Positions 5,331 to 46,277 of a DNA stretch of 64,000 nt are shown here, one piece after another. Within the stretch, counting starts at the first letter, position 1, and each line of letters opens with the position of its first letter. Location of the stretch: the NCBI RefSeq assembly GCF_026210795.1, contig NC_089440.1, positions 2,108,001-2,172,000 of the forward strand. Direction: 5' to 3'. Below the pieces are notes generated by a model. It saw nothing but the letters and a program-made list of their open reading frames with translations. It ran no database searches and was not told where the DNA came from. A program made the translations under genes and the position numbers. This stretch comes from Rhizophagus irregularis (lineage: Eukaryota > Glomeromycota > Glomeromycetes > Glomerales > Glomeraceae).

Positions 5331-5959
5331 ATTTTTGAATATAATTTTGCTATAAATCACCAGCAGTGATCATCACCGGTATCATGTGTTATTATATATT
5401 GCGTTAAATTATTATAATTGTCATACAAACATGTGTTTATTTTTATTTATTTTTATTTTTAAAATAAAGACTAGTACTGGAGTTGCACTATACATAGGAA
5501 CAGGTACAAACAAAGTAAAACCATAATTCCAAGCTAAAGATTAACCCAACCTCTCGAACAAATCGAAGGGGTCGCCTAGCCTCGCTCTACAAGGAACGCA
5601 GGCTTAGCCGCAACTCAAGCTACGAACCAAATAGAACAAAAAAAGACACTCAAACACTAATTTAGCGAGAGTTCCCAGTCAAAAAGAAAAAAAGAATTTT
5701 GCCTATTCTGAATAAAATCTATTATTCTTATAACTACTAAATCTTTAAGAAAAAAAAGAATGAATCCCCCAGCTGTTAATCAAGGGAAGTTCTTAGACTA
5801 ATTTTCGCAGTAAGGATAAAATTTCTGCTAAAACCACCGTGTTATCCTTATTACCTCCTTTATCCCTAGACTTCTTATTGGACTTCGACTTCTGAAATTT
5901 GGGATCTTTCAATGGGTCTTTAGTAGATTTGGCTTGTTTCTTAGCACTAGTCGAGGATT

Positions 5960-6280
5960 TCAGGTCCTTTTTTTTAAGGTTAACATTACCGGACTATTGC
6001 GCGGTTTTCCTGGCATCTTGTCAGGAACATTCTTTGCCTTTTGTTTAGTTGGTGCTTTCTTCAAGGTAGGTAAGGAGTGTTGACACCATTTCAACTCTAG
6101 AGAATTCTCCCGGAAAGCTTGTAGAGTTTCTAGGGCTTTGAGTGTAGCCTCCCAATTCTCGAAATATCCTATGAGCTTCCTCTTACCTTTACTTGTTTGT
6201 ATAATTTTAAACGCGCTAGTACTACACGTCGTTAAAAATGGTTGTGGTTTACGGTCTGCCCACAAGGTAGCCATCGTCAT
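5960..6280 (-). pseudogene. NL-3 C-terminal ORF (lysine-rich region)
   Basis: This starts MTMATLWADRKPQPFL and contains FKIIQTSKGKRKLIGYFENW and ELKWCQHSLPTLKKA, the conserved core and C-terminal segment of the NL protein. The frame is lost at about 5960. The remaining lysine-rich tail and the final leucine-rich helix lie in another frame to about 5800. The MTMATLW start is internal to the longer NL reading, so it may not be a true initiation site. Confidence 0.65.
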
Positions 6281-6792
6281 TTCAACCGGAATATCATGAA
6301 TAATGGCTTGGAACTTTTTGCGTTATTTTCTTTCTCGTAAAGTCCAACTTGCAGGGAACCATCTTACAGGTATACCTCCCAGGTCAGTCGTCCAGAACTT
6401 GGTAAATTGGGGAAGGGAAAATGAGTTCAAAACTATTTTGACTCTAAGAGTCTGATATTTGTATTGCCGTTTTAATGACAACTTAATAGTTTTGCCCCAT
6501 AACGTTAGTTCTCCTAAGATTCTATCAACGTCCCAGGTATACGGAATGTCATATACAATAATATCTCTGACTTGCTCTCGCTCATCATCGGCTTCTCTGT
6601 ATCCAGTCAGTATATGTGTAACCCCAGGTGCAGATGTTTTTGCCCCAAAAATAGGGTATTTTGTTTGTCTGGGGTTTATGCCTCAGGATTTGCCATAAAT
6701 GATTGGTATATAACTTGTTTATCAGCTGTAGCATGCGCCTTTGTTTATCTTTCTTCCGGGAATTTTCAGGTATCACAGTTGATCGACAGGGG

Positions 6793-7260
6793 TCATTTCC
6801 ACATCAGGCAGTATTGGGGGTGTAACATGTACTGGTTTTGGTGAAGTTTTCGGTGTTGATATGTATGTAGATCCAAATTCGTCTTTAGCGGAGGGCATTC
6901 CAACTCTGAGTCACCCATGTCACCAAATCTAGTATAGGCGCAGGTAGCAAAATTATCCCACGACCTGGACAAAGCGTAAAGGGCTATAGAAAATAATAGT
7001 GAAAGGGTGGTTGGTTGTATATTCGTCGCCGCTGCCTGTTGGGCGAAGTTGTTCAGGTTGGCAGACTCGCCAAACATATCTACTAAAAGCTGTGCTTTAT
7101 CCACAGGTTGCTGTAGGTTTTTATCAAACAAAGTTTTGAGGAAACCGTTCTCAACAAACTGTCCAAGCTGAAATGTTGTATAAGATAAGAACGTATCCCC
7201 TTCTGCTGAAACGAACTCTAAAAAGTTGTCTACAGATATATTTTCTACTGAGTCTCCCAT
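6793..7260 (-). pseudogene. NL-3 ORF1, N-terminal half
   Basis: A 155-codon reading starts MGDSVENISVDNFLEFVS directly after the AT-rich leader. It carries the family signatures LGQFVENGFLKTLFDKN, DKAQLLVDMFGESAN, NIQPTTLSLLFSIALYA and SRSWDNFAT. The last third is shifted in frame compared with other copies, where P-x-LPDV-x-MTPVDQ follows. In-frame continuation of that segment lies at 6585-6776. The function is inferred as the retroelement ORF1 N-terminal region, possibly for oligomerisation or RNP assembly. No named domain is certain. Confidence 0.7.
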
Positions 7261-7671
7261 GTTCGATATTTTTATTTTATGTAAAAAATTTTAAATAAAG
7301 TGAAAAAATTTAAATAAAATTTTTGAAGGAGAAAGAGTTTACAAACATGTGTTACTTATTTATTTATTTTATGTAAAGTCGGGAGATACAAAAAAGGGCA
7401 TGATTCCAAAGTAATACAACCCAAATAAATCCTACCATTGAATTCCAGAGGAGCTGGAGTCCAACCCGAACTTTTTGAAAAGAAAAAAAATCTGCACTAC
7501 TACCATGTCCGATAAAAGTCCAGGCGAACACACTGGGTAAAAAAAAAAGAGGGGAAAAAAGTGGAGAGGACAAGTCCTCTTTCCAAGAAATTGTGGTACA
7601 ACACATAACTATATTCTATCCTAAAAATAATACAATTCTGAAATTCGTAAAACCGCTAATTAAAGCATAAG

Positions 7672-8154
7672 CTAAACTAGTTTCTGTAATAAAGTCAAAA
7701 TTTCTGCTAAAACCGCCTTGTTGTCTTTATTATTACCCTTATTCTTTGAGGAATTCTTTGCCTTCTTCTGAGTATTCAGGCGTTTCTTCTCCTGGTTACT
7801 ATTTTTAGAGACTTTTTTCGAGAATGAAGGTTTATCTTTCTTCTTAGGCTGATTACTTTCCAAATTCATGTCAGACTTACCTGACTTTTTCATATTCGGT
7901 GTATTTTTAGCCTTTGGTTTACTTTGTGCTTTCTTCAAGATAGGAATGGAGTGTCGACACCATTTCAACTCCTTACCATCAGGTACGAAAAACTGTGGCG
8001 TATCTAAGGCTCTTAGTGTGGTCTCCCATTTCTCAAAATAGGCCACGAGTTTCCTCCTTCCTTTACTTGTTTGAATGATTTTAAATGAGCTAGCACCGCA
8101 CTTCATTAAAAATTCACATGGTTTACGGTCCATCCACAAGGTAGCCATCGTCAT
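7672..8154 (-). CDS. NL-4 C-terminal ORF, 160 aa, lysine-rich nucleic-acid-binding-like protein
   Basis: The ORF is intact from MTMATLWMDRKPCEFLMKCG to AVLAEILTLLQKLV. Residues 1-75 form the compact conserved part (SSFKIIQTSKGRRKLVAYF, then ELKWCRHSIP). Residues 80-140 are a low-complexity basic tract with KPKAKN, NQPKKKDK and KKAKNSSK blocks. Residues 145-160 form an amphipathic leucine-rich helix. In the inferred ancestral element this is the C-terminal third of a single protein, and here it is separated from ORF1 by a TGA at 8440. The basic tail suggests RNA binding, by inference. Whether it is translated alone is unknown. Confidence 0.7.
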   Translation of the reverse strand: MTMATLWMDRKPCEFLMKCGASSFKIIQTSKGRRKLVAYFEKWETTLRALDTPQFFVPDGKELKWCRHSIPILKKAQSKPKAKNTPNMKKSGKSDMNLESNQPKKKDKPSFSKKVSKNSNQEKKRLNTQKKAKNSSKNKGNNKDNKAVLAEILTLLQKLV

Positions 8155-8439
8155 ATCCTCCGGAATGTCATGAATAACAGCTTGGAACTTTTTACGTTGT
8201 TTTCTTTCTCATAAAGTCCAACTTGTGGGGAACCATCTAACGGGTATACCTCCCAGGTCTGTCGTCCAATATTTATTAAACTGGGGAAGGGCAAAGGAGG
8301 ATAGTGCTATCTTGACTTGAAGAGTCTGATACTTATGCTGGCGTTTAACTGAACACTTGATAGTATTCCCCTATAGTTTTAACTCTGCTATAATTTTTTG
8401 CAGGTCCCAGGTATACGGGATATCATAAACAATTATGTT

Positions 8440-9075
8440 TCAGATTCGCTCTTGCTCCTCTCTGACAGTTTCGTATCCTGTCAGTATTTGTGTAGCTTTC
8501 GGTTCGGATGATTTCTTTCCCTTATGGGAATTTTTGGCTGATGTTTTCACATCAGGTTTTGCCTTTGTTGATTGGTTCGTAGTTTGTTTATCAGCTGTAA
8601 TACGCGCCTTTTGTTTATCTTTCTTCCGGGAATTTTCAGGTATTACAGTTTGATCAACAGGGGTCATTACTAAATCAGGCATTGATGGAAGCTTGATAGG
8701 TACTGGATTTGGTGGTTTTATAAATCCTTAGCGTATAAGATCATCATCTTCATCAAGTAGCAAAGGTGACTCATCCATCAGATAATCATCAGTATCCTGA
8801 GATTCTGCATCGTCGTCATCATCATCATCACCCGTATCGCCAAAATCGCAATAGAATTGGGTAGAAAAATTATCCCAAGACCTGAATGCAGCATATAGCA
8901 CTATAGAAAATATTAGCGAAAGGGTGGTGGGTTGTATATTCGTAGCTTGGGCTTGTGAAGTGAAGTTCGCAGGGTTGGCTGTCTCGCCAAACTTCTGTAT
9001 CAATAACTGGGCTTTATCCTTAGGTACTGAGGGGGTTTTTTTCAAATAAGTCTTTGAGGAAACCGTCCTGTACAA
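8440..9075 (-). pseudogene. NL-4 ORF1, frameshifted
   Basis: Two overlapping readings, 8728-9075 and 8440-8682, together encode the ORF1 middle and C-terminal parts. These include DKAQLLIQKFGETAN, NIQPTTLSLIFSIVLYA, a poly-Asp stretch, DDYLMDES, MTPVDQTVIPENSRKKDKQ and the end EEQERI followed by TGA. The frame is lost at a homopolymer near 9030 and again near 8720. ORF1 function is inferred by comparison with NL-5. Confidence 0.75.
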
Positions 9076-9912
9076 AAGAACTTAAGTGATGTGTAAAAGT
9101 TTGAAAATAAATTTTGTTAAACTTTGAAACGAAGTCTAAAGCTTCTTCGTTTTGTGTTCGACTCTTATCCATAGACATTTTTATATTTATGTAATAAAAT
9201 TTAATAAAGGGGATTATTTTTTAAAAAAAATTATTACGCAGAAATTTTTGTAAAAAATGTATTCGGGAAAGAGTTTTGTAGACACTCTTACAAACATGTG
9301 TTATTTTTTTTTTTATTTATTTTATGTGAAGCCGGCAGGGGATATAAAAATGAGCATGATTCCGAAGTAATACAACCCAACTAAATCCTACTATCGAATT
9401 CCAGAGGAGCTGGAGCCCAACCCGAACTTCTTGAAAATAAAAGACCTGCACTACTACCACTACCGATAATAATCCAGGCGGACACACTGGGTAAAAAAGG
9501 AGGGGGAAAAAAAGTGGAGAGGACAAGTCCCCTTTCCAAGAAATTGTGGTGCATACACATAAACCTATTCTATCCTAAAGAATAATACAATTCTGAAATT
9601 TGTAAAACCGCTAATTAAAGCGTAGGCTAAACTGACTAGTTTCTGTAATAAAGTTAAAATCTCTGATAAAACCGCCTTGTTATCTTTATTACCACCCTTA
9701 ATCTTCGAGGTATTCTTTGCCTTCTTCTGATTCTTCGGGTGTTTCTCCTCCTGGTTATTATTTTTCAGGACTTTCTTCGAGGATGTAGGTTTATCCTTCT
9801 TCTTAGGCTGATTACGATCCAAATTCTTGTCAGACTTACCTGACTTTTTCGTATTCGGTGTATTTTTAACCTTCGGTTTACTTTGTGCTTTCTTCAAGGT
9901 AGGAATGGAGTG

Positions 9913-10398
9913 TCAACACCATTTCAACTCTTTACCATCAGGTACGAAAAACTGTGGCGTATCTAAGGCCCTTAGTGTGGTCTCCCAATTCTCGAAATAG
10001 GCCACAAGTTTCCTCCTTCCTTTGCTTGTTTGAATAATTTTAAATGAGCTAGCACCGCACTTCATTAAAAATTCACATGGTTTACGGTCCATCCACAAGG
10101 TAGCCATCGTCATATCCTCCGGAATGTCATGAATAACGGCTTGGAACTTTTCACGTTGTTTTCTTTCTCGTAAAGTCCAACTCGCAGGGAACCATCTAAC
10201 GGGTATACCTCCCAGGTCTGTCGTCCAATATTTATTAAACTGGGAAAGGGCAAATGAGGAAAGTGCTATTTTGACTCGAAGAGTCTGATACTTATGTTGC
10301 CGTTTAACAGAATATTTAATAGCGTTCCCCCAAAATTTTAACTCTGCTATTATTTTCTGCAGGTTCCAGGTATACGGGATATCGTAAACTATAATGTC
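9913..10398 (-). pseudogene. NL-5 core domain after the TGA (RNA-binding-like)
   Basis: Directly in frame after the TGA at 10399-10401 the reading continues DIIVYDIPYTW, WGNAIKYSVKRQHKYQTLRV, TTDLGGIPVRWFPASWTLRE and MTMATLWMDRKPCEFL. It ends at a TGA (9913-9915) that replaces the arginine codon after KELKWC. The alternation IVYDIP...LRVKIALS is reminiscent of an RRM-like fold, as in many LINE ORF1 proteins. This is an inference from the pattern only. The lysine-rich tail continues below 9912. Confidence 0.6.
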
Positions 10399-11136
10399 TC
10401 AGATTCGCTCTTGCTCCTCTCCGACAGCTTCGTATCCTGTCAGTATCTGCGTAGCCTCCGGTTCAGATGAATTCTTTCCCTTTTGGGAATTTTTGGCTGA
10501 TGTTTTCACATCAGGTTTTGCCTTTGTTGATTGGTTCGCGACTTGTTTATCATCTGTAATACGCGCCTTTTGTTTATCTTTCTTCCAGGAATTTTCGGGT
10601 ATCACAGTTTGATCAACAGGGGTCATTACTATATCAGGCATTGATGGAAGCTTGATAGGTACTGGATTTGGTGGTTTTTGGAATCCTTGGCATATTAGAT
10701 CATCTACATCTTGATCAAGAAATGGAGACGCATCCATTAGGTAATCATCAGTATCCTGAGATTCCCTATCTTCGTCATCATCATCATCACCAGTATCGCC
10801 AAATTTGCAATAGAATTGGGTAGAAAAATTATCCCAAGACTTGGACGCAGCATATAGCGCTATAGAAAATATTAGCGAAAGGGTGGTGGGTTGTATATTC
10901 GTAGCTTGAGCTTGTGTAGTGAAGTTTGCAGGGTTGGCTGAGTCGCCAAACCTTTCTATCAGTATCTGGGCTTTATCCTTAGGTACTGAGGGGTTCTTTT
11001 CAAATAAGTCCTTGAGGAAACCGTCCTGTACAAAAGAACTTAAGTGATATGTAACGGTATTAAAATATTGTTCGTTAAACAAGGAAACGAAGTCTAAAGC
11101 TTCTTCGTTTGGTGTTCGGCTCTTATCCATAGACAT
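10399..11136 (-). CDS. NL-5 ORF1 protein, 245 aa
   Basis: This uninterrupted ORF starts MSMDKSRTPNEEALDFVS, immediately downstream of the conserved AT-rich leader. Residues 10-110 are a predicted helical region with signatures FVQDGFLKDLFEKNP, DKAQILIERFGDSANP, NIQPTTLSLIFSIALYAASK and SWDNFSTQFY. Residues 113-150 are acidic (poly-Asp, DDYLMDAS). Residues 160-180 carry the LPSMPDIVMTPVDQTVIPEN motif, and residues 185-235 are basic. It ends at EEQERI-TGA, but the same frame stays open beyond that codon as DIIVYDIPYTW. By context it is the ORF1/Gag-like protein of a non-LTR element. No catalytic domain is present. Alternatively the TGA is simply an inherited mutation. Confidence 0.75.
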   Translation of the reverse strand: MSMDKSRTPNEEALDFVSLFNEQYFNTVTYHLSSFVQDGFLKDLFEKNPSVPKDKAQILIERFGDSANPANFTTQAQATNIQPTTLSLIFSIALYAASKSWDNFSTQFYCKFGDTGDDDDDEDRESQDTDDYLMDASPFLDQDVDDLICQGFQKPPNPVPIKLPSMPDIVMTPVDQTVIPENSWKKDKQKARITDDKQVANQSTKAKPDVKTSAKNSQKGKNSSEPEATQILTGYEAVGEEQERI

Positions 11137-11797
11137 TTTTATATTTATGTAATAAAATTTAATAAAAGGGATTATTTTTTAAAAAAAATTATTACGCAGA
11201 AATTTTCGTAAAAAATGTATTCGGAAAAGAGTTTTTTAAAAAATATTGGTTACTACAAACATGTGTTACATGTGCGCGTAATTGATTTCTCCCTATTTTA
11301 CCCTTATCATGTGATTTGCGTTATTGTTTATTGTATAGTTGGGGACACAACAAATCATCAAGTTGTTGGGAAAAAACTCTTTCCCGAATACATTTTTTAC
11401 GAAAATTTCTGCGTAATAATTTTTTTTAAAAAATAATCCCCTTTATTAAATTTTATTACATAAATATAAAAATGTCTATGGATAAGAGCCGAACACCAAA
11501 CGAAGAAGCTTTAGACTTCGTTTCTATGTTTAACGAAATTTATTTTCAAACTTTTACACACAACTTAAGTTCTTTTGTTACAGACGGTTTTCTTAAGGAC
11601 TTATTTGAAAAAACCCTTCAGTACCTAAGGATAAAGCCCAGATACTGATAGAAAGGTTTGGCGAGACAGCCAACCCTGCGAACTTCTCTACACAAGCTCA
11701 AGCTACGAATATACAACCCACCACCCTTTCGCTAATATTTTCTATAGCGCTATATGCTGCGTCCAAGTCTTGGGATAATTTTTCTACCCGATTCTAT

Positions 11798-12208
11798 ATG
11801 CGTTTTGGCGATACGGGTGTTGATGATGATGACGATGACGATGGTTCTCAGAATACTGATGATTATCTAATGGATGAGTCATTTCCGCTTGAGCCCGATG
11901 AAGATGAATTATTACGCCGAGGATTTCAAATGCCACCAAAACCAGTACCTATCAAGCTTCCATCAATGCCTGATATAGTAATGACCCCTGTTGATCAAAC
12001 TGTGATACCCGAAAATTCCCGGAAGAAAGATAAACAAAAGGCGCGTGTTACAGATGATAAACAAGTCGCGAACCAATCAACAAAGGCAAAACCTGATGTG
12101 AAAACATCAGCCCAAAATTCCCAAAAGGGAAAGAAATCATCCGAACCGGAAGCAACACAGATACTGACTGGATACGAAGCTGTCGGAGAGGAGCAAGAGC
12201 GAATCTGA
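11798..12208 (+). pseudogene. NL-6 ORF1, C-terminal half
   Basis: This is an open reading from the acidic linker (poly-Asp, DDYLMDES) through LPSMPDIVMTPVDQTVIPEN and a basic stretch to EEQERI-TGA. The N-terminal part at 11473-11620 is in another frame because of a deletion in the homopolymer encoding EKNPS. The conserved N-terminal signatures can still be read on either side of that frameshift. Confidence 0.75.
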
Positions 12209-12495
12209 GACATTATAGTTTACGATATCCCGTATACCTGGAACCTGCAGAAAATAATAGCAGAGTTAAAATTTTGGGGGAACGCTATTAAATATTCTGT
12301 TAAACGGCAACATAAGTATCAGACTCTTCGAGTCAAAATAGCACTTTCCTCATTTGCCCTTTCCCAGTTTAATAAATATTGGACGACAGACCTGGGAGGT
12401 ATACCCGTTAGATGGTTCCCTGCGAGTTGGACTTTACGAGAAAGAAAACAACGTGAAAAGTTCCAAGCCGTTATTCATGACATTCTTCGGAGGAT

Positions 12496-12975
12496 ATGAC
12501 GATGGCTACCTTGTGGATGGACCGTAAACCATGTGAATTTTTAATGAAGTGCGGTGCCAGCTCATTTAAAATTATTCAAACAAGCAAAGGAAGGAGGAAA
12601 CTTGTGGCCTATTTCGAGAATTGGACCACACTAAGGGCCTTAGATACACCACAGTTTTTCGTACCTGACGGTAAGGAGTTGAAATGGTGTCGACACTCCA
12701 TCCCCACCTTGAAGAAAGCACAAAACAAACCGAAGGCTAAAAATACACCGAATCTGAAAATATCAGGTAAGTCTGATAAGAATTTGGAAAGTAATCAGCC
12801 TAAGAAGAAGGATAAACCTACATCCTCGAAGAAAGTCCCAAAAAATAATAACCAGGAGGAGAAACACCCGAAGAATCAGAAGAAGGCAAAGAATACCTCG
12901 AAGAAAAAGGGTGGTAATAAAGATAACAAGGCGGTTTTAGCAGAGATTTTAACTTTATTACAGAAACTAGTTTAG
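12496..12975 (+). CDS. NL-6 C-terminal ORF, 159 aa, lysine-rich
   Basis: The organisation is the same as the 160-aa ORF of NL-4: MTMATLWMDRKPCEFLMKCG, SSFKIIQTSKGRRKLVAYF and ELKWCRHSIP, then a basic low-complexity tail and the terminal AVLAEILTLLQKLV helix. One codon is missing in the FENWETT segment. The arginine after KELKWC is retained, in contrast to NL-1 and NL-5, where it is TGA. The role is inferred as the RNA-binding tail of the NL ORF1 protein. Confidence 0.65.
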   Translation: MTMATLWMDRKPCEFLMKCGASSFKIIQTSKGRRKLVAYFENWTTLRALDTPQFFVPDGKELKWCRHSIPTLKKAQNKPKAKNTPNLKISGKSDKNLESNQPKKKDKPTSSKKVPKNNNQEEKHPKNQKKAKNTSKKKGGNKDNKAVLAEILTLLQKLV

Positions 12976-13330
12976 CCTACGCTTTTATTAGCGGTTTTAC
13001 GAATTTCAGAATTGTATTATTTTTTAGGATAGAATAGATTTATGTTTAGCACCACAACTTCTTGGAAAGGGGACTTGTCCTCTCCACTTTTTTCCCCCTC
13101 CTTATTTTTACCCAGTGTGTTTGCCTGGACCTTTTACCGGACGTGGTAGTGGTACAGGTCTTTTTTTTCAAGTAGCTCGGGTTGGCTTCTGGCTTCTCCA
13201 GAAATCGATGGTAGGCTCAAGTCGGGTTGTATTACTTAGGTTTTATTACTTAGGAATCATGCTCTTGCTGTATAGCCCCTACCGGCTTCACATAAAATAA
13301 ATAAATAAATAAATAAATCATCAAGTTGTT

Positions 13331-13859: not shown

Positions 13860-13875
13860 ATTTTTCCCACTCAGC

Positions 13876-14160
13876 ATTATTTTTAGGATAGAATATGTTT
13901 ATGTGTCGCACCACAATTTCTTGGAAAGAGAACTTGTCCTCTCCACTTTTTTTTTTTCCCTCTCCTTTTTTACCCAGTGTGTTCGCCTGGACTGTTATTG
14001 GACGTGGTAGTAGTGCAGGTCCTTTTCTTTTTTTTCAAGAAGTTCGGGTTGGCTTCCAGCTTCTCTGGTTGTCGATGGTAAATTTCGTTTAGGTTGTACT
14101 TTATAGTCATGCCTTTGTATATTTCTCTGCTGGCTTCACATAAAATAAATAAATAAATAA
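13876..14160 (+). mobile_element. NL-7: 5'-truncated NL copy (285 bp) with perfect 16-bp TSD
   Basis: Only the last 285 bp of the 3' UTR and the (AAAT)n tail are present. They are flanked by ATTTTTCCCACTCAGC at 13860-13875 and 14161-14176. A 5'-truncated copy with an A-rich simple tail and a long variable TSD is the hallmark of target-primed reverse transcription. It is the clearest evidence here that NL elements are non-LTR retrotransposons. Confidence 0.92.
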
Positions 14161-16493
14161 ATTTTTCCCACTCAGCCTCTTGGCAGGTCTATTATTGCTA
14201 GTTTCTTGTAAGTTTGATAGGACTTTTGAAGGGAAGAGTGTCATGTTTGATAGACGTCTGAATTTTCTTTACGTTCCTAACCTACATTAATAAGAAAAGA
14301 CTTAGGTAAAGGAGTATCAAATGCGTTTGATATTTGATAAACTTAGAAATTTCTACCTTATGCCGCTTATAGAGTCTGAATATCAAGTCCAGTCATCATC
14401 CTGAACTATAAACATGGTAGTTATAGACGATATGAATGAAAATACAGTGGCTCTCAAAAGTAACGCACCATGCAAATGGTTGATTATTAATCACATGTAG
14501 TGGTATTAAATTAAAGCCAATCAAAATAAAATTAAAAATGTAAATCATTTATCATATGATTATCAAAATATGGTAAAAATTTAATGTAAATTGATTGGTT
14601 AATTTTTTAGTATGATACATTTTGTCAAAAAAAGGTGGTGTGTTACTTTTGCAGTTTTTTGTATTTTTAATAAATTAATAATTTTATAAAAATTAACAAT
14701 ATGCTTTATTATAAATTTAATGATAAATTAAATATTAAATAGCCTAAATTATTAAATAAACTTAAAAAAAACCAATAATTTTAATAATTTAGAATTAATT
14801 TTATATAAATAATATATTTATAATTATATATTAAATTATACATAAATTTTTAAAATTAATAATAATAATATTATAAAATATTTTTTTAAAAAAAAATTTT
14901 GACAAAATTATTGGAATCTCCTTAGTTAGAGGATTTTTTTAAACTAAATTTCACTATGATCGGGTTGGTAAATCGGCGCCAATTAATTGTCAAAGTTTGT
15001 GTAATGATCATCATTTTATATAGTTTCTTATATATTCAATAATGTTTTATTTATAACTTCGCATTCAGTGATCACAGAAAGATGAAACACAGCTCATCGG
15101 ATTCTTCTCATCGAGACGAATCTAATGGTAGTAAAATCGCATTCATAGGTGCAATACATAAGGAATTGTGACTAAACATGTCAAAAAATTTTTTATAACT
15201 CATGTTTTGCATAGACATTTTTGACGTCACTTTCTTATGTATTGCATCAGGATCCCGAGCAATATATGTATAGGTAACAATATCGTTTGCTTAGTCACAT
15301 GCTATTTTAGCCACAGTTAGAGGTTAAATTTGCGTAAAATTAATGATATTTTTTGCCAATGTCATATTTTTCATTTGCTTATTTTCACAGAATTTTTGAA
15401 AAGTCATATATTATAATTGCTTATTTATTGAGTAAATTTAGTATTATTTAATAATGCATTGTATAACATTTAACTATATAAGCGATGGTATTATGCTAAT
15501 ATGCAAAAGTTAATAGGAGATGAAAAAAATTACTAAGACGGATATTTTAGCTAAAATGATATTACTATTGAAAAAAGTGAAATTGTAAATCATAAATGCG
15601 AGAAAATTTGATCAAATAATTTTTGTAAAATATAATATTATAAAGTCATATGGTTAGATTGCTTATTTTTGGGCAATTTGTGAAGTCACATGTTGAGTTT
15701 GCTTATTTATCTTAATAAAAACCTTGCGTAGAGCTATTATAAAAATTTTGACCTTTTTTGATACCTATATATATATTGCTCGGGGTCCTATCACATCTAG
15801 GCATATGATTTTACCACCATTAGATTCGTTACAATGAGAGGATTCTAATGAGCTATGTTTCATCTCTCTGTGATTACTGGATGCAAAGTTAGACATTAAA
15901 ATGTCTATGCAAAACATGAGTTATAAAAAATTTTTTGACATGTTTAGTCACAATTCCTTATGTATTGCATCTATGAATGCGATTTTACTACCATTAGATT
16001 CGTCTCGACGAGAGGAATCCGATGAGCTGTGTTTCATCTTTCTGTGATCACTGGATGCAAAGTTATTAAATAAAACATTATTGAATATATAAGAAACTAT
16101 ATAAATGATGATCATTACACAAACTTTGACAATTAATTGGCGCCGATTTACCAACCCGATCATAGTGAAATTTAGTTTAAAAAAATCCTCTAACTAAGGA
16201 GATTCCAATAATTTTGTCAAAAATTTTTTTTAAAAAAATATTTTATAATATTATTATTATTAATTTTAAAAATTTATGTATATTTTAATATATAATTATA
16301 AATATATTATTTATGTAAAATTAATTCTAAATTATTAAAATTATTGGTTTTTTTTAAGTTTATTTAATAATTTAGGCTATTTAATATTTAATTTACCATT
16401 AAATTTATAATAAAGCATATTGTTAATTTTTATAAAATCATTAATTTATTAAAAATACAAAAAACTGCAAAAGTAACGCACCACCTTTTTTTG

Positions 16494-32432: not shown

Positions 32433-33687
32433 TCGTTTCTTTTTCTTCTTATTAGAATTTTAGCATTTTAGGGCTAAGTTACCTTAGTACTAGGATGTCC
32501 TAATCCTTTTTTTTCCGTTTTTATCTACTCTAACTCGGTTGTGTTTTAGAGTAGCTAGTTTTTTACAAAAATCCTAGTCAGGGTTTGCTTTTTAGCAGAC
32601 GAAGTTTTATATTGTGTTTTATATAGTTTTATACTAGCTCTAATTAATCAATGTAATTCTCCTGGCTCGCCTTAAAATAAAATAAAATAAAATACATTTT
32701 TTATTAAATTTTTCATAAAAAAATTTGGTTGGTCAAACGGTTGGTCAAACGGTCAGTCAAATGGTCTGTCAGAAGTCTTGACCAACTGATATCAGTCACG
32801 GTCATGACCAGTCATAATCGGTTAATGACCATGACCGTCTTTCTGGCATTATTTCTATTAACTTAGTACATGTCTCTATTCCAAACTTGAGAAATATACT
32901 CCCACAAAGCATCTCTTCTTCTAATTATATTATTTGACGCCCTGAGTCAAATATCTACATCATTCCAAAGATGTTCAATTGGGTTTAAGTCAGGGGATTG
33001 CGCTGGCTACGGTAACTGGAAGATAACATCTGAAACATCTAATTCATAGTATCGCAGGGTCTCCATAAAGTCTTCACTTAATATTTTGCAATGAAGTTCC
33101 GCGTTGAGCCCTCCTTTAAGAAACCTATACCGCGTGAGGTGAAACAACCCTATACAAAAATGCTTCTGCCACCAAACTTTACTGTAGGTTTAATGTGAGC
33201 ATCTTTGAGCAGTTCTCCTTACTTCCTCCAACAGTATTCACGTCCATCAGAGCCAAATATTTGGAATTTTGAAAACTACCCTACTCCAGTCTTGTACAAT
33301 CCAATCCTTAAATCTCTTAGCAAAATCAAGCCTCTTTTTGCGATGTTTTTTGGATAGAAGAGGTTTTTTATGTTTTGCTCTCGCAGCAGAACCATTTTTT
33401 CTTAATACTCTAGGTATAGTCTCAGCGCTAACCTCGATATCTTCATTAACTTGTATAGATTTTGTTAATAAAACAGTGGTTGTACACTCTCCTGTCAATA
33501 AGCATCTTATAACAGTACGTTCATTACGTTCGTTTAACTTGGGTGGTCAGCCTGAATGCTGTTTATCTTTAACATTACCAGTTTTCTCATATTTCTTTTT
33601 AAGTCTTAGTATCACTCAGTGGACATGTCACATAACATATCAATCACTAATTAAAAAATTGTACCACAAAAATGATCTGCACAAAGT

Positions 33688-35616
33688 GATGTAATATATG
33701 TAAGACTCTTTCCCGAATACATTTTTTACGAAAATTTCTGCGTATTAATTTTTTTTAAAAAATAATCCCTTTTATTAAATTTTATTACATAAATATAAAA
33801 AATGTCTATGAATAAGAGCCGAACACCAAACGAAGAAACTTTAAACTTCGTTTCCAAGTTTAATGAAATTTATTTTCAAACTTTTACACACCACTTAAGT
33901 TCTTTTGTACAGGACGGTTTCCTCAAGGACTTATTTGAAAAGAACCCCTCAGTACCTAAGGATAAAGCCCAGTAACTGATACAGAAGTATGGCGACACAG
34001 CCAACCCTGTGAACTTCACTTCACAAGCTCAAGCTACGAATATACGACCCACCACCCTTTTGCTAATATTTTCTATAGCGCTATATGCTGCGTCCAGGTC
34101 TTGGGAAAATTTTTCACACCAATTCCTTTGCAATTTTGGCAATATGGGTGTTGATGATGATGACGACGATGCAGAATCTCAGAATACTGATGATTATCTA
34201 ATGGATGCGTCACCTTTTTTTGAGCAAGATGTAGATGATCTAATACGCCAAGGATTCCAAAAACCACCAAATCCAGTACTTATAAAGCTTCCATCAATGC
34301 CTGATATAGTAATGACCCTGTTGATCAAACTGTAATACCTGAAAATTCCTGGAAGAAAGATAAACAAAAGGCGCGTGTTACAGATGATAAACAAATCAAG
34401 AACCAATCAACGAAGGCAAAACCTGATGTGAAAACATCAGCCAAAAATTCCCAAAAGAGAAAAAAATCATCCGAACTGGAAGCTACACAGATACTGACAG
34501 GATATGAAGCTGTCGGAGAGGAGCAAGAGCGAATCTGAAACATAATAGTTTACAATATCCTGTATACCTGGGACCTGCAGAAAATATTAGCAGAGTTAAA
34601 ACTTTGGGGGAACGCTATTAAATGTTCCGTTAAATGGCAACATAAGTATCAGACTCTTAGAGCCAAGATAGCACTTTCCTCCTTTGCCCTTCCCCAGTTT
34701 AATAAATATTGGACGACAGACCTGGGAGGTATGCCCGTCAGATAGTTCCCTGCAAGTTGGACTTTACGAGAAAGAAAACAACGTGAGAAGTTCCAAGCCA
34801 TTATTCATGACATTCCGGAGGATATGATGATGGCTACCTTGTGGACGGACTGTAAACCAGGTGAATTTTTAATGAAGTGCGGTGCTAGCTCATTTAAAGT
34901 AATTCAAACAAGTAAAGGAAGGAGGAAACTTGTGGCCTATTTCGAGAATTGGGAGACCATACTAAGGGCCTTAGATACGCCACAGTTTTTCGTACCTAAC
35001 GGTAAGGAGTTGAAATGGTGTCGACACTCCATCCCTATCTTAAAGAAAGTACAAAGTAAACCGAAGGCTAAAAATACACCGAATACGAAAAAGTCAGGTA
35101 GTCTGACAAAAATTTGGACAGTAATCAGCCTAAGAAGAAGGATAAACCTGCATCCTCGAAAAAAGTCCCTAAAAATAATAACCAGGAGGAGAAGTACCCG
35201 AATACTCAGAAGAAGGCAAAGAAATCCTCGAAGAAAAAGGGTAATAATAAAGATAACAAGGCGGTTTTAGCAGAAATTTTAACTTTATTACAGAAACTAG
35301 TTTAGCCTATACTTTGATTAGCGGTTTTACAAATTTCAGAATTGTATTATTTTTAGGATAGAATATATTTATGTGTTGTACCATAATTTCTTGGAAAGAG
35401 GACTTGTCCTCTCCACTTTTTTTCCCCCACCTTTTTTTTACTCAGTGTGTTCGCCTGGATTATTATCGGACATGGTAGTAGTGCAGGTCTTTTTTTTCAG
35501 GAAGTTCGGGTCAGCTTCCAGTGTTGATGGTAGGATTCGGTTAGGTGGTACTATATTATAGTCATGCCTTTGTAAAATTCTCTCCCTACTTCACATAAAA
35601 TAAATATATAAATAAA
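33688..35616 (+). mobile_element. NL-17: full-length NL element with 14-bp TSD
   Basis: GATCTGCACAAAGT occurs at 33674-33687 and 35617-35630. Fifteen extra bases (33688-33702) lie before the conserved AGACTCTTTCCCG start. ORF1 starts near 33801 but has a stop near 33973 and a frameshift near 34316. The conserved TGA is at 34536-34538. The C-terminal part is at 34824-35305 in two overlapping frames, and the 3' UTR carries a degraded (AAAT)n tail. It interrupts the Tc1 transposase. Confidence 0.9.
34824..35305 (+). pseudogene. NL-17 C-terminal ORF, frameshifted
   Basis: MMMATLWTDCKPGEFLMKCG through ELKWCRHSIPILKKVQSKPK is in one frame. A one-base deletion near 35095 moves the lysine-rich tail into the frame 35114-35305, which ends AVLAEILTLLQKLV. 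Apart from this shift it matches the NL-4 ORF. Confidence 0.7.
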
Positions 35617-37112: not shown

Positions 37113-37179
37113 ATAATAAGTCATATATTCAAAATTGTATAACCAAAAATTTTTATTTGTATAACAATAATGATTTTTA

Positions 37180-37830: not shown

Positions 37831-37938
37831 TTTGTATAAAACTTACTATATTATACATATTGGGCATCAATATCTATAAGGTATTTATAAAAATTTTATT
37901 TAAGTTATTTTTTAATAATTTTTTTTAAGAAAATTTTA

Positions 37939-38215: not shown

Positions 38216-38349
38216 TAATAATATTTATTTTGAAATTTTTCTTTAAAAATTTTTTTTTTATATAAACTCAGATTCATAATTGTATAATTTATAATAAAAT
38301 TTGAACTTATGTAATGATTTTGTATAAATCTTCTAATAAAATTAGGCAT

Positions 38350-39975: not shown

Positions 39976-40767
39976 GTAACACCAAAAATGTAGTAAAAAA
40001 AAATGTAATGCTAAAAAAAAAAGTACTAAAAAATGTCAATTTATTCAAAAGTTAATTAACAATGTGAATTTTGAAAAGTCATTAACTTTAATTCTTTTCA
40101 AAGGAAAATGGGCTAAAGAGAATATTTGAGAGCACAGACTTGTGAAATAGTCATGAATAATTGTCCCTTCCAACTATATCTAATTGGTAAAACTGGTACA
40201 AGCCTTTTACCTTCTTCAGTAACAATAGCTGGCACAAAATAGTTGACAAATTCTATTAAAATAGCAATAGGAAATAAAGAAGGTGGCTGGTTTTCTTTAA
40301 AATATGATTTCTTGGATAATACCCACTGATCTATTAGCCAAACCAACTTCTATCCATAAGTTAATCCTAAGTATAATTCTTTCTCCTCATGCAATAATAA
40401 TTGAGCCTTGAGTTCTTATTCACCTCTTTACTTCCTGTATGAATAGCTTTGATTAGAGCAACAGAACAATTTAATGATTTAAGCTTATTAATATTAAATT
40501 TAGCAATATCGTACTTTTGAGGTATAAAACATATGGCATCTGAGAACATATATTTGCAATAATATGGCTCTAAACTTGTACTGTACATCTGATTCACCTG
40601 ACTGACATTGAGCTTATAGATTTCACAGAACTGTCTATATGTCTAGATACTGTCAGAGAAAAAACTCTTTCCCAAAATTCTTTTTTTACGAAAATTTCTA
40701 TGTAATAATTTTTTTTTAAAAAATAATCCCTTTATTAAATTTTATTACACTTTTAAAAATAATAAAA

Positions 40768-41516
40768 ATGAATAAGGAAATGAGTAGAATAAAACGATAC
40801 GAAGAAGCTGTAGACTTCGTTTCAAACTTTAACGATATATTTTATCAAAATATTTCACACACTTTAGGTTCTCATATCGAAGACGGTTTCCTCAAAGACC
40901 TATTTACCAAGAACCAGTTAAAGACTGTAGATAAAAGACAGTTATTGATAGAGAGGTTTAGCGAAACTACCGACCCTGAGAACTTTGCTGCACAAGCTCA
41001 AGCTACGAACATACAACCCACCACCCTTTCGCTAATATTTTCTATAGTGTTACATGCTTCGTCCAAGTCATGGGAAAATTTTATGGCCCATTACTTTCTC
41101 AAATTTGGCGATTTGGGTGATGATATATCTGATGAAATGGATAGTTTATCAGAGGATGATCCTGATGCAATGGAATTTCAACGTCAGCTTGACGAATTAA
41201 GGAAGAGATCATCAAAACCAGTAGTTGAAACGCCTCCAATACTGCCAGATGTGGACATGACCCTGTCGATCAAACTGTGATACCTGAAATTTCCCAGAAG
41301 AAAGATAAACAAAAGGCGCGTGTTACAGATGATAAACAAGTCAAGAACCAATCAATAACGGCAAAACCTGATGCCAAAACGCCAGCAAAAAATTCCCAAA
41401 AGGAAAAGAATTTATCTGTACCTGAGGCCACTCAAATACTGATAGGATACGAAGCTGTCAGAGAGGAACTAGAGCGAATACGAGACATAATAGTTTACGA
41501 TATCCCATATACCTAG
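40768..41516 (+). pseudogene. NL-20 ORF1, one frameshift
   Basis: MNKEMSRIKRYEEAVDFVSN starts the ORF. Signatures are HIEDGFLKDLFTKNQ, LLIERFSETTDPENFAA, NIQPTTLSLIFSIVLHAS and SWENFMAHYFLKFGDLGD, then an acidic linker and PPILPDVDMT. A one-base deletion at about 41268-41277 shifts to the frame IPEISQKKDKQKARVTDD, which ends RIRDIIVYDIPYT. It shows that ORF1 and the core were once one continuous protein. Confidence 0.75.
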
Positions 41517-41761
41517 GACCTGCAGAAGATTATAGCAGAGTTAAAGCTTTGGGTAATACTATCAAATGTTCTATTAAAACATAAGTATCAGACTCTTCGA
41601 GTCAAGATAGCACTATCTTCATTTGCCCTTCCCAGTTTAACAAATATTGGACAACGGACCTGGAAGGTATACCAGTTATATGGTTCCCCACAAGTTGGAC
41701 TTTACGAGAAAGAAAACAACATGAAAAGTTCCAAGCTGTCATTCACAACATTCCGAAGGAT

Positions 41762-42241
41762 ATGACGATGGCTACCTTGTGGATGGACCGTAAACCATGT
41801 GAATTTTTAATGAAGTGCAGTGCCAGCTCATTTAAAATTATTCAAACAAGCAAAGGAAGGAGGAAACTTGTGGCCTATTTTGAGAATTGGGAGACCACAC
41901 TAAGGGCCTTAGATACGCCACAGTTTTTCTTATCTAAAGATAAGGAGTTAAAATGGTGTCGACACTCTATTCCTATCTTGAAGAAGAAAGCACAATCTAA
42001 ACCGAAGGCTAAAAATACCCCAGACAAGAAAAAACCTAAAGTAGGTAAAGTCTCAGATAGTAATCAGCCTAAGAAGAAGGATAAAGTTTCGTCCTCGAAA
42101 AATACCAAGCAAAATAATAATCGATTGAAAACTCCAAACGTTCAGAAGAAGACAAAGAATCTCTCGAAGAACACAGATCGTGACAAGGATAACAAGGAGG
42201 TTTTAGCAGAAATTTTGTCCCTGCTGCGTAAGTTAGTTTAG
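41762..42241 (+). CDS. NL-20 C-terminal ORF, 159 aa, lysine-rich
   Basis: The ORF is intact from MTMATLWMDRKPCEFLMKCS to EVLAEILSLLRKLV. The conserved 75-residue segment is close to NL-4 and NL-6. The basic tail is shorter and differently arranged (KKPKVGKVSDSNQPKKKDK, QKKTKNLSKN). The closing leucine-rich helix is conserved even in NL-18, which suggests it mattered for function, perhaps for multimerisation or partner binding (inference). Confidence 0.65.
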   Translation: MTMATLWMDRKPCEFLMKCSASSFKIIQTSKGRRKLVAYFENWETTLRALDTPQFFLSKDKELKWCRHSIPILKKKAQSKPKAKNTPDKKKPKVGKVSDSNQPKKKDKVSSSKNTKQNNNRLKTPNVQKKTKNLSKNTDRDKDNKEVLAEILSLLRKLV

Positions 42242-42770
42242 TCTTTCGTTAGATTAGTTCTAATATGTATTATTTTGTTAGGTAGAAATTTTTGCGTTAC
42301 CTTTCGCTGGAATACTCTTTTCTTATTCCTATTCTATAATGGTAGTGTTATAGAATAGTTTTTTTTTAAAATTCTAGTCAGGGTCTGATTTTTTTTGGGC
42401 GAAGTTTATTATTGTATATTCGTTACAACTATTTGTTGAATTTTAATTATCAATGATATCCTCTTGGCTTACCTTAAAATAAAATAAAATAAAATGTCTA
42501 GATACTATCATTTGACAATGGATTTTCTTGAGAAATTTTTGAATACATTAGTCTATTGTGTACTGGTAGAAGCTGACCAAAATCTCTGACCAAGATTATT
42601 GAGCATCTACTAAAGAGGACCCTATACATCACATATACAACTCAGAGGTTGACTTTTTGAAAAATATGGCATAGCGCCTTTATCTTTATTAATTTATTAG
42701 AAACATTTACAATTAAACAAAATACAATAAAAGAAATAATAAAAAAATGAACTAACTAAAAATAAAGCTA

Positions 42771-43955: not shown

Positions 43956-45202
43956 CGTCTTCTATCTCTACTTCTGCCTTGTCTTCTATCTCTACTTCAA
44001 AACTCTTTCTCCTTTTCATTTTTACAAAAAATTCTGCAAAAATTTTTTTTTAAATTTTTTCACTTTATTTAAAATTTTTTATATAAAATAAAAATGTTGA
44101 ATATAGGAGACTTAGTTAGAAAGAAGAATTGCGCAGAAGACTTTTAAAGTTTATCTCGTATAATGGATACCAATATTTACATAAAGTTACTGCAGAGCTC
44201 GGTTCGTTTGTAGAAAATGGTTTCCTTAAAACTTTATTTGATAAGAGTCCACAGGCTATGGACAAAGCTCAGCTTTTAGTAGAGACGTTTGGCGAAAGTG
44301 CCAACCAAAATAACTTTTCTATACAGGTGCAGGCGATGAATATATAACCTACCACCCTTTCACTAATATTTTCTATAGCGCATTACGCTTTATCCAAATC
44401 GTGGGATAAATTTGCTACCCGCGCTTATACTCTATATGGTGATATGGGTGATGACACAGAATCGGAATGTCCTTCCGCCTATGACGAATTGTTTACATCT
44501 ACTAGCTCTTCAAATACGAAAACTACACCAAATCCAGTACTTGAAACACCTCCAATACTGCCTGATGTGGAAATGACCCTGTCGATCAAACTGTGATACC
44601 CGAAACTTCCCAGAAGAAAGATAAACAAAGGCGCATGTTATGGATGATAAACAAGTCAAGAACCAATCAACAACGGCAAATCCTGGTGCACAAACATCAG
44701 CTAAAAACCCCGTAAGGGAAGAATTCATCTGTACCTGAGGTTACTCAAATACTGACAGGATATAAAGAAGCTGATGACCAGCGAGAGCAAGTCAAAGACA
44801 TTATTGTATATGATATTCTGTATACCTGGAACATTGAGAAAATCTTAGGAGAATTAACGTTATGAGATCATACTATCAAGTTGTCAGTAAAACGGCAGCA
44901 CAAATATCAGACTCTTAAAGTCAAAATAGTTTTGAACTCATTTACCCTTCCCCAATTTAACAAGTTTTGGACGACTAACCTGGGAGGTATACCAGTGAAA
45001 TAGTTCCCCGCAAGTTGGACTTTACGAGAAAGAAAACAATGTGAAAAGTTCCAAGCTGTCATTCTTGTGGAGTGACCGTAAACCACAATTATTTTTACAG
45101 ACGTGCAGTGCTAGCACCTTTAAAATTATACAAACAAGCAAAGGAAAAAGGAAACTCGTAGGTTATTTCGAGAATTGGGAGACCACACTCAAGGCCTAAA
45201 AT

Positions 45203-45517
45203 ATGCCTCAAGTTTTCCTTAATGATAAGGAGTTGCGATGGTGTCAACACTCTATTCCTACCTTGAAGAAGAAGCACAAGCCGAAGGCTCAAAATACTCC
45301 GAACAAGAAGTCTGAAAATCCTGGACAAAGTTCGAATAGTAATCAGCCTAAGAAGAAGGATAAGAAGTTCTCAACCAAGACTGCTAAAGATGATAACCAG
45401 TTGAAGAACCTGAATTCTCAGAAGAAGGCAAAGAAATCCTCAAAGAGTAAGAGACGTAATAGTGTTAACACAGAGATTTTAGCAGAAGTTTTGGACCTAT
45501 TACATAAATTAAATTAG
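45203..45517 (+). pseudogene. NL-21 lysine-rich C-terminal region
   Basis: MPQVFLNDKELRWCQHSIPT leads into a basic tail with NQPKKKDKK and KKAKKSSKSK and ends EILAEVLDLLHKLN. The upstream part (TCSASTFKIIQTSKGKRK) is in a different frame. The tail is therefore separated from its core. Confidence 0.6.
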
Positions 45518-45828
45518 TTTAAATTCCTATCTAGTTATAGTTATTTATTTAATTAGAATATAGCGCATTTTTAGTAGCAGAATTTTTTTTTCACTTTTAA
45601 TTCTACTCTATAAGCCCTTGGCTTTAGAAGGAGCTTGCCCCAGTTCTTCCTTATTTTTACCCAGTTCATATGGGTTTGTCTAGGCGGCGAAGTTTCACCT
45701 AGATTGAGCCTTTCTCTTTATCAAAGGGTGAGGTCTGGTTGTATGGGAATTTAGTTTCCAGCGCTGGTTGAATTTCCTATTCTAGACACAGTTTTTAGTT
45801 GGAATGTATTTCGATATATGATAGCTAT

Positions 45829-46067
45829 CAGTGTTTATTTTCACTGTGCGGCATGTGCATAGCGCACATAATCAGAATTTTGCACACACCTTTTTTAGAA
45901 GGGATGTGCGGCATGCACAAAAAATTTTGAAATATCCTTATATGATTGGACGCATATGTATTACAGTACCTATTATAGTAGTATAGCCATACCACTTTGC
46001 CACACAGTAAAACTCAATAAATTGTGCGCCGTCCGCACAGTAACTTTTTATCAAAAAATTAACACTG
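45829..46067. mobile_element. hAT-type MITE in the NL-21 3' UTR, 8-bp TSD ATAGCTAT
   Basis: The ends are CAGTGTT and AACACTG, with CACTGTGCGG facing CCGCACAGTAA inside. ATAGCTAT occurs at 45821-45828 and 46068-46075. It is 239 bp. GTGCGGCATGTGCATAGCGC and similar GC-rich dinucleotide runs stand out from the AT-rich surroundings. No ORF. Confidence 0.85.
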
Positions 46068-46277
46068 ATAGCTATTATTTGTACTAGATAGGTTTTACTA
46101 CTCTTGGCAGAATAAAATAAATAAATCTCTACTTCTATCTCTACTTCTTGATCAAGACCTAGATTGTGACCTTCTTCTTTCCCTTCGCAATCTATATTCA
46201 TATCAATGTTGATCATGCGCAGCATGCTGCCGTCGATACTCTCATCTAAACAGATCTAAAATCCAATAAAAATATTA

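Follow-up and report, generated by a model that had tools for sequence, protein, structure and literature searches.

To our knowledge, few cases of ORF1-only retroelements with a recognizable donor come from organisms other than mammals and flies. HAL1 derives from L1, keeps ORF1 and lacks ORF2, and has a coiled-coil/RRM/CTD ORF1 protein and a poly(A) tail; HeT-A attaches at chromosome ends without target-site duplications (TSDs). Stringent 3′-end recognition is known as a class, and Grem-LINE1, a LINE tied to the pericentric regions of the early-diverging fungus Mucor, carries a reverse transcriptase (RT). HAL1 is described as non-autonomous and likely moved by L1 (PMC4161310), and for HeT-A a description has its ORF1p apparently guiding TART ORF1p to the ends of chromosomes (PMC4700185). 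G2/Jockey-3, a non-LTR element of the Jockey family, is reported from all five Drosophila centromere contigs and is enriched there; these contigs hold about 63% of its copies, and that account presents the element as not specific to them (PMC6516634).

The NL family compares in part with each of these systems. It was found in the window, by which we mean the whole 64-kb stretch of Rhizophagus irregularis DNA analysed here. Like HAL1, NL keeps ORF1 without ORF2, and the HAL1 resemblance proposed in an earlier reading of the letters alone (the sequence-only reading) holds as a fair functional analogy. Nevertheless, NL is not a HAL1 member, as it belongs to a fungal genome and, in a comparison with local LINEs, its closest kin was one of these, and it differs in its two RNA-recognition motifs (RRMs), basic C-terminus, (AAAT)n tail, structured 3′ end and once-per-chromosome clusters. 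By analogy, HeT-A appears closer to NL in lifestyle than HAL1, since both carry ORF1/Gag only, would need the RT of another element (a presumed partner in the case of NL) and keep to one kind of chromosomal structure. However, HeT-A occupies the telomere, with TART as RT donor, whereas NL clusters are internal, and TSDs are present in NL, together with a 3′ fold that it shares with its presumed donor. Stringent-type SINEs share a 3′-terminal fold and tail with a LINE, as do the NLe and NLf copies (weakly NL1; none found for NLg), but SINEs have no protein gene, whereas NL is 1.9 kb long with a constrained 501-aa ORF. In contrast to G2/Jockey-3, NL is ORF1-only and has 130 of 134 listed matches in clusters, and its likeness to Grem-LINE1, as a putative centromere-region element of an early-diverging fungus, is one of description, not of sequence. 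New here are the visible candidate partner LINE and the confinement of NL to one spot per chromosome.

NL copies and their coding content

Window self-comparison and the merged copy table gave eight full-length NL copies (Table 1), where at least seven had been claimed, and one of them carries a MITE-like insert, as the sequence-only reading had noticed. Older NL fragments lie at about 1.05, 24.1-30.1 and 39.4 kb of the window. The NL leader is CTCTTTCC, the tails are (AAAT)n or (TAAAA)n, and at least three 3′ UTR types (NL1, NLe/f and NLg) agree with the earlier division into three or more subfamilies. Candidate TSDs of 13-17 bp were found in 9/9 copies with both ends inside the window, and none was found for the edge-cut copy at 1-943 (10 copies tested); the 66 mismatched flank pairs used as a control shared a mean of 6.7 bp and a maximum of 12. 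The family combines variable TSDs, an A-rich 3′ tail and 5′ truncation; the truncated copy at 13876..14162, with the 16-bp TSD already reported for it, is typical of target-primed reverse transcription, and the earlier proposal of this mode of movement is upheld. NLh (5438..7328) is the third copy of a head-to-tail trio, and one TSD is common to all three.

Table 1. NL copies and features within them, in window positions.
Feature	Position	Strand	Remarks
NL1, 3′ half only, 5′ part left of window	1..943	+	84% to the copy at 11370
NLh, NLg-type ORF	5438..7328	-	Self-comparison; TSD AACACATGTTTGTA
NLa, NL1 copy, full length, ORF broken	7352..9280	-	TSD TAACACATGTTTGTAA
NL ORF1 C-terminal part in NLa: second RRM, basic tail, closing helix	7672..8154	-	
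NLb, NL1 copy, full length	9301..11237	-	TSD TAACACATGTTTGTA
NL ORF1 N-terminal half in NLb: helical part, acidic and basic linkers	10399..11136	-	
NLc, NL1 copy, full length, ORF broken	11370..13318	+	TSD AAATCATCAAGTTGTT, 16 bp
5′-truncated NL1 copy, 3′ UTR and tail only	13876..14162	+	TSD ATTTTTCCCACTCAGC, 16 bp
Possible divergent 3′ module, NL1	14015..14149	+	Weak: 23.8 bits, E 0.05
NLf, full length, ORF broken, LINE 3′ fold in 3′ UTR	30860..32693	+	TSD 17 bp
3′ module in NLf	32523..32681	+	R1 model match 137.7 bits (sequence in model)
NLd, NL1 copy, full length, ORF broken	33702..35616	+	TSD GATCTGCACAAAGT
NLe, full length, ORF broken, LINE 3′ fold in 3′ UTR	40658..42495	+	TSD ATGTCTAGATACT
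3′ module in NLe	42327..42483	+	R1 model match (sequence in model)
NLg, full length, ORF broken, with MITE-like insert	43997..46131	+	Merged copy table
MITE-like insert of the NLg copy	about 45829-46067		Genome-wide dispersed matches to insert

According to the ORF listing, the full NL ORF is kept in no window copy; a stop directly before DIIVYDIP is common to three of them, and in NLb the ORF is broken by a stop upstream of the RRM core. Intact ORFs of 501 aa were found in copies outside the window. The listing showed no RT-size ORF in any window copy, beside ten near-full-length cluster copies (loci L020-L029, 2.4-2.6 kb) or in the dispersed relatives, whose loci measure 3.4-8.5 kb. NL is not an autonomous LINE, being without an RT or EN of its own in the loci read, and the claim that it encodes only an ORF1-like protein withstood the search for an RT in full copies outside the window.

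By structure prediction (pLDDT 80.9) and structure matches, the NL ORF1 core consists of two RRMs, with PABP RRM1-2 as the best solved-structure match (Z 10.3, 154 residues). L1 ORF1p was absent among the matches listed for the core, which excludes nothing, and an AlphaFold model of the whole protein (pLDDT 48) served solely to comment on helices. Against the LINE ORFs of eight loci, the NL profile matched ORF1 of L017, a local LINE (E 1.5e-6; best blastp 1e-8, both in a small database), in an alignment spanning both RRMs, and this is the nearest LINE ORF1 relative of NL found. RRM_1 was above the Pfam cut-off in the ORF1 of L017 and L012. After the RRMs, NL has a basic tail and L017 a Cys/His stretch, and Pfam gave no match for a CCHC zinc knuckle in this region of L020 or L031. 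The dN/dS ratio was 0.33-0.40 between subfamilies (intact 501-aa copies) and 0.23-0.40 in the 10/15 between-family pairs for which dS could be computed (exceeding 2 in some), and the lowest pN/pS in seven intact ORFs was that of RRM1 (0.18). The NL ORF does not evolve neutrally, so that the neutral decay named as a possible refutation of the earlier claim was not found. At the 5′ end, all three dispersed leaders compared with L013 beat 300 shuffles and NL1 against L017 gave p 0.01 (40 uncorrected tests), which is suggestive of a resemblance between the leaders of NL or dispersed elements and those of LINEs.

A second ORF1-only family, sister to NL, has a poly(A) tail and dwells in hexamer microsatellites. 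At least one local LINE, L016, also inserts in hexamer microsatellites.

The shared 3′ end and a candidate partner LINE

In the 3′ UTRs of NLe and NLf, the last ~160 nt fold into an RNA structure with covariation. In the alignment, on which the fold was also predicted, 96.5% of cells are paired and 10 pairs carry two-sided changes, compared with 4.4 in shuffles and 0-4 when slid. The same 3′ module ends an 8.6-kb EN/RT LINE, represented by L051 and L052 (96.6% identical over 8.57 kb), which matched the R1 fold model with 111.2 and 110.7 bits (E 6e-20) and were not used in building it. Both have the order ORF1, EN/RT-type ORF2 and, about 45 nt behind ORF2, the 3′ module, and a degraded LINE on C28 shows the same order. 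The sequence-only reading had proposed a protein-coding parasite of an unseen LINE; this is supported, and a candidate for that LINE is now visible. The matching 3′ end and tail sought for NL were obtained for NLe/f, only weakly for NL1, the commonest subfamily (12/17 copies searched, E 0.007-0.2, the weakest barely exceeding chance matches at 18-20 bits), and not for NLg, whose 3′ ends, like the dispersed families, gave no credible R1 match.

ORF2 has two in-frame stops in L051 and one stop plus frame breaks in L052; because both copies are broken, no active donor is seen. L018, a relative (RT 53% identical), is open, yet it ends in another 3′ sequence. The ORF1 of L051/L052 gave neither an NL match nor a Pfam RRM, so that NL would combine, as a chimera, the ORF1 kind of one LINE with the 3′ end of another, the nearest LINE ORF1 relative found (L017) and the sharer of the 3′ end (L051) being different LINEs. 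Likeness between NL and non-NL 3′ pieces is no more than about 70-77%, so the true donor may be a sister LINE outside those seen. L012-L019 were rejected as 3′-end partners, as DNA comparison gave no 3′ end common with NL, and L006-L011, six loci read from the RVT_1 search (best 150 of 1007 candidates scored), were rejected as LINE partners for their gag-pol type ORFs.

Away from NL, 28 3′ pieces were listed, three of them only 45-52 nt long. L036, L038 and L039 were discarded as separate events, being copies of one DNA repeat of >5.6 kb, and at least two further pieces have an identical score, so the 28 are not independent events. No LINE or NL protein match was found in the stretch read at the module loci L036, L037, L040, L041 and L043, which may be either truncated LINEs or SINEs.

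One site per chromosome

The genome was scanned with the C-terminal part of the NLa ORF1 (7672..8154; best 150 of 283 candidates scored). Among the matches listed, 130/134 NL matches fall in single intervals no longer than 120 kb, one for each of 30 of the 32 chromosomes, compared with an average of 41.5 under uniform placement (contigs without known size taken as 4.2 Mb). Cluster-type and dispersed-type rows were split at 47% identity, a line set after the table had been seen (gap 48 vs 45). An NLg query gave the same spots, which are internal and not at chromosome ends. The NLg 3′ UTR outside the insert occurs almost only in or near clusters, with one exception on C24, and the MITE-like insert (query 308-546) is dispersed genome-wide. 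All 28 listed 3′ pieces away from NL lie outside the NL spots; location therefore seems to go with ORF1 rather than with the 3′ end. Because centromeres would give one such interval per chromosome, the NL clusters are most likely centromeres; a CENP-C domain search had no match (0 candidates) and was uninformative. This confinement, the microsatellite family and the split between L017 and L051 lay beyond the view of the sequence-only reading.

Alternative explanations and proposed mechanism

We consider it probable that NL is a non-autonomous ORF1-only family, served by an L051-type donor through the shared 3′ end and occupying one domain per chromosome. If the copies were instead internally deleted LINE remnants, with ORF2 lost many times and no family of their own, the homology of the NL ORF1 core to LINE ORF1 and the likeness of some 5′ leaders would fit; yet the eight full window copies and the ten cluster loci keep one compact ~1.9 kb layout, the sister families (503-505 and 539 aa) follow the same plan with intact ORFs under constraint by dN/dS, and the best LINE ORF1 match in the 10 loci read (L012-L019, L051, L052) is about 20-27% identical, which makes this very unlikely. 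Slightly less credible still is a spread not by retrotransposition but by exchange between centromeres, through ectopic recombination or gene conversion: it could account for the head-to-tail copies at 5438-11237, L002 and L005, but separate copies have distinct TSDs and flanks, and the target duplication recurs between tandem copies.

The clustering might also reflect survival, with insertion anywhere and persistence only in gene-poor domains. Centromeres often collect retroelements, and the ORF listing of the window holds no ORF of at least 150 aa besides NL pieces and one MULE/FAR1-like ORF. Against this, the listed NL matches crowd to an extreme degree into 0.67% of the genome, copies of the sister ORF1-only family with intact ORFs persist outside the NL clusters, and some cluster copies are young (L022/L024, dS 0.006); 0/104 listed LINE RT matches fall in the clusters, a weak point as about 0.7 were expected. 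We regard survival alone as unlikely, though deserving of weight. It is more doubtful that the clusters represent another once-per-chromosome heterochromatic domain. C24 and C29 have no NL protein match among those listed and C13 and C18 have a second spot, but most chromosomes carry a single site of up to about 55 kb (99 kb on C3, 71 kb on C21), regional fungal centromeres look like one such site per chromosome, and no further kind of domain found once per chromosome readily suggests itself.

In the mechanism proposed for the ORF1-only family, the NL transcript would be translated into the two-RRM protein, which presumably coats its own RNA. The 3′ fold and A-rich simple-repeat tail of this RNA may have been copied from, or be shared with, an L051-type EN/RT LINE, whose ORF2 protein would take the NL RNA as template for target-primed reverse transcription, an encounter suggested by the shared 3′ end. 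New copies would then land, on each chromosome, within a single short domain that is most likely the centromere, and those of the sister family in hexamer microsatellites. Tentatively, and with some hesitation, we propose that NL ORF1 steers the RT of a LINE located elsewhere in the genome, captured through the shared 3′ fold, to centromeric chromatin, and that the sister clade is directed to hexamer microsatellites; we infer such ORF1-directed targeting from the locations described above.

NL offers a natural experiment on the landing site of LINEs, with related 3′ ends, two outcomes, and an outcome that tracks the ORF1 protein. If ORF1 acts as an address label, target choice would reside in ORF1 instead of the endonuclease, and NL would be a marker for centromeres in arbuscular mycorrhizal fungi, where they have so far not been mapped. 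According to a 2023 chromosome-scale study of R. irregularis, finding out where its centromeric repeats lie may help studies of chromosome number and structure (PMC10234402), and NL provides a sequence-level centromere candidate for nearly every chromosome.

NL copies and their confinement to one site per chromosome

The ORF1-only elements of the NL family occupy about 19.3 kb of the window, where the merged copy table holds eight full-length copies, one copy cut by the edge, one 5'-truncated copy and older fragments. Target site duplications (TSDs) of 13-17 bp were found at all nine window copies with both ends, compared with an average of 6.7 bp and a maximum of 12 bp shared by mismatched flank pairs (n=66, pairs within the tandem array excluded). 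Three copies lie head to tail with one TSD common to all, indicating repeated insertion at the same site; two loci of a sister family (L002 and L005) resemble this array.

The genome searched comprised 146,748,485 bases in 32 contigs, and the window corresponds to C12:2108001-2172000. A query with the C-terminal part of the NL protein gave 152 matches, 150 of them listed (150 of 283 candidates scored), and rows with at least 47% identity were taken as cluster-type. Among the matches listed, 134 such rows were spread over 30 of the 32 contigs, and 130 of them fell, contig by contig, inside a single window no longer than 120 kb, with C1, C5 and C25 trivially counted as confined by a single match each. 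Uniform placement put a mean of 41.5 and a maximum of 51 of the 134 in such windows (2000 runs). The exceptions were a second group on C13 and one copy on C18. No NL protein match was listed on C24 or C29, and C24 carries one 3' UTR piece of the NLg type. The same spots were marked by the NL1 3' UTR (40 of 98 candidates scored) and by the NLg protein, which also detected a sister family (108 of 701 candidates scored). A 548-aa open frame that reads like an F-box protein starts immediately beyond the right edge of the window.

Regional centromeres appear as one compact site per chromosome, and the NL spots are probably centromeres. In the available portions of two papers on R. irregularis transposable elements, which name LINE or SINE families, the string "centromer-" occurs once, in the reference list (PMC8647823), or is absent (PMC11075540). 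The Rhizophagus passages of a review of fungal nuclear organisation describe A/B compartments and no centromeres (PMC10246852), and among the open-access papers listed for Rhizophagus, mycorrhizal fungi or Glomeromycotina, no title or opening of an abstract reports mapped centromeres for this group.

Coordinates of features in the window and elsewhere in the genome
Feature	Location	Remark
Tandem NL copies	window 5438-11237	three copies
Shared stop codon	window 10398, 12209, 31672	three NL copies, two subfamilies
NL1 copies whose 3' end has no listed fold-model match	window 1-943, 11370-13318, 33702-35616
Inverted repeat	window 14626-15221 and 15898-16493	596-bp arms, 97.8% identical, from self-comparison
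Open frames reading like MULE/FAR1-type transposase pieces	window 21706-22320; L049 5206-7534
MITE-like short repeat	window 23430-23715, 36818-37163, 37933-38262, 46269-46509	~240-350 bp, self-matching in both orientations
NL spot of C12	C12, ~2.102 to 2.154 Mb
Second NL group of C13	near 3.00 Mb
Isolated NL copy of C18	2.75 Mb
NLg 3' UTR piece of C24	3.187 Mb
EN-bearing LINEs	C12:2.289-2.306 Mb, 2.568-2.576 Mb; C17:3.67-3.92 Mb	spaced roughly 8-9 kb, as if in head-to-tail arrays
LINE L016	C14:3419800-3429200

Coding capacity and constraint of the NL ORF1 protein

In the window, no NL copy retains a complete ORF. An intact 501-aa ORF was found in seven of ten cluster loci picked for long open frames (L020-L026), and the remaining three contain ATG-to-stop ORFs of 365-423 aa. 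The stop shared by three window copies lies at the codon preceding DIIVYDIP; this position is a CpG-containing Arg codon in intact NL1-type copies and a Gln codon in two further cluster copies, a pattern consistent with a possible hot spot of CpG decay.

No Pfam family scored over the cut-off with the NL protein. Its profile matched the ORF1 of LINE L017 (E 1.5e-6, in a small database of LINE ORFs from eight loci) over both core halves, after which the L017 protein goes on with a Cys/His stretch absent from NL; the ORF1 of L013 was a weaker match (blastp 0.006). RRM_1 was above the cut-off in the ORF1 of L017 and L012 but not in those of L013, L018 and L051. In the predicted structure (pLDDT 80.9), the NL core forms two successive RRM folds, with RRM1-2 of a poly(A)-binding protein as the best solved-structure match (Z 10.3, 3.6 A, 154 residues). 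Foldseek returned tandem-RRM proteins at E ~1e-5, yet with TM-scores of only ~0.3, perhaps because the two domains are differently placed. The helical N-terminal part and closing helix proposed in the sequence-only reading agree with helices drawn at residues 2-113 and 486-500 of the whole-protein model, a poor one (pLDDT 48) that proves little.

The same reading had called for dN/dS on ORF1, and constraint was seen: dN/dS was 0.23-0.40 between subfamilies or families in the 10 of 15 pairs with computable dS; four of the ten dS exceed 2 and are rough. The three pairs of cluster-type subfamilies gave 0.33, 0.37 and 0.40. Across the seven intact ORFs pooled pN/pS was 0.42, with a minimum of 0.18 in RRM1, and it reached 0.7 and higher in the closest pairs, as expected after insertion. 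Only open ORFs entered these tests, which biases against stops and not against missense changes.

A 3' fold shared with a LINE

The 3' UTR of the NLe type gave 25 genome matches, many of them its terminal ~170 nt at non-NL loci, and this 3' piece as found in L037 gave 34. An alignment of 13 sequences folds into a hairpin and a closed domain that contains two inner helices; of its 31 pairs, 10 show two-sided compensated changes. Pairing reached 96.5%, whereas shuffles gave 91.5% and slid controls no more than 46.9%, though these controls favour the fold because it was predicted from the alignment itself.

On C28 the 3' piece sits behind a degraded LINE ORF2, and a reverse transcriptase search (104 of 985 candidates scored) yielded two matches on C4, each with a 3' piece at the same fixed spacing. 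These loci, L051 and L052, hold two copies of the same 8.57-kb LINE. The copies are 96.6% identical and carry a 758-aa ORF1 and an ORF2 like that of L018 (36% over 1951 aa in L051), which is broken in both. The 3' piece lies ~45 nt past the frame end of the L051 ORF2 and ends in a tail of the same kind. The fold model, built from other sequences, scored 111.2 bits for L051 and 110.7 for L052. A LINE with an NL-like 3' end and tail, which the sequence-only reading proposed to look for, was found for the NLe/NLf types. Another repeat, >5.6 kb long, ~99% identical between its loci on C1 and C7 (L036, L038, L039) and with no obvious transposase ORF, carries a captured copy of the LINE 3' end.

NL1, the commonest type, gave only weak matches to the model. 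Among 17 NL1 3' ends (six from the window, ten from L020-L029, one from L033), 12 gave full-length matches (20.8-28.0 bits, E 0.007-0.2), all stopping at the same (C/T)A(C/T)ATAAAATAAA, where the tail begins; L021 matched over a shorter stretch (17.6 bits), and no match was listed for three window ends and L023. Elsewhere in the searched sequence three matches scored 17.8-20.3 bits. The alignments of L020 and L027 keep the closing helix and first inner helix fully paired despite changed letters, with two faulty hairpin pairs each and the second inner helix broken in L027. Our reading, short of proof, is of a diverged version of this 3' end in NL1. The NLg 3' end gave no match.

Location, sister families and proposed mechanism

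Six of the 34 matches to the 3' piece lie inside clusters, each immediately downstream of an NL ORF match among those listed, and 28 lie outside. Beside these 28, no cluster-type NL was among the matches listed for three NL and sister protein queries. Thirteen of these loci were fetched (L036-L043, L046-L048, L051, L052), L038 and L039 being compared only as copies of L036; tblastn with NL proteins gave no match in the other 11. The naive value of 7e-7 is too small, since several outside pieces come from copies of a single DNA repeat. NL location seems to go with ORF1 and not with the 3' end, and ORF1 may do the steering. The NL 3' pieces form a group of their own, somewhat diverged from the non-NL ones, so aiming at the clusters might also be the work of an unseen LINE whose 3' end is NL-like. 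Unrooted trees set cluster-type and dispersed ORF1 proteins apart, with support of 0.90 and 1.00 for the dispersed clade.

The dispersed proteins belong to sister ORF1-only families with intact ORFs of 503-505 and 539 aa (L001-L003, L005, L030, L031; 85 of 710 candidates scored). Copies at L001-L003 are ~97-98% identical, keep the 503-aa ORF intact, end in poly(A) tails and are inserted in hexamer-type microsatellites (TGTACA-, CATTGA- or GTACTTA-type); L002 holds a head-to-tail pair. The 505-aa proteins of L030 (C2) and L031 (C7) look identical. Another poly(A)-tailed element, LINE L016, sits within a TGTCAATGACAA-type (CATTGA-type) microsatellite, the target kind of one sister-family pair, making it a candidate donor for the sister family.

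The nearest described systems, judging from the available parts of the sources, are HAL1 (PMC4161310), HeT-A (PMC4700185) and G2/Jockey-3 (PMC6516634). In the mechanism we propose, NL RNA would be transcribed and translated, its ORF1 product would bind it, and an ORF2 protein of the L051 clade would take this RNA via the 3' fold and tail. The complex, possibly steered by ORF1, would then insert into centromere-like chromatin by target-primed reverse transcription.
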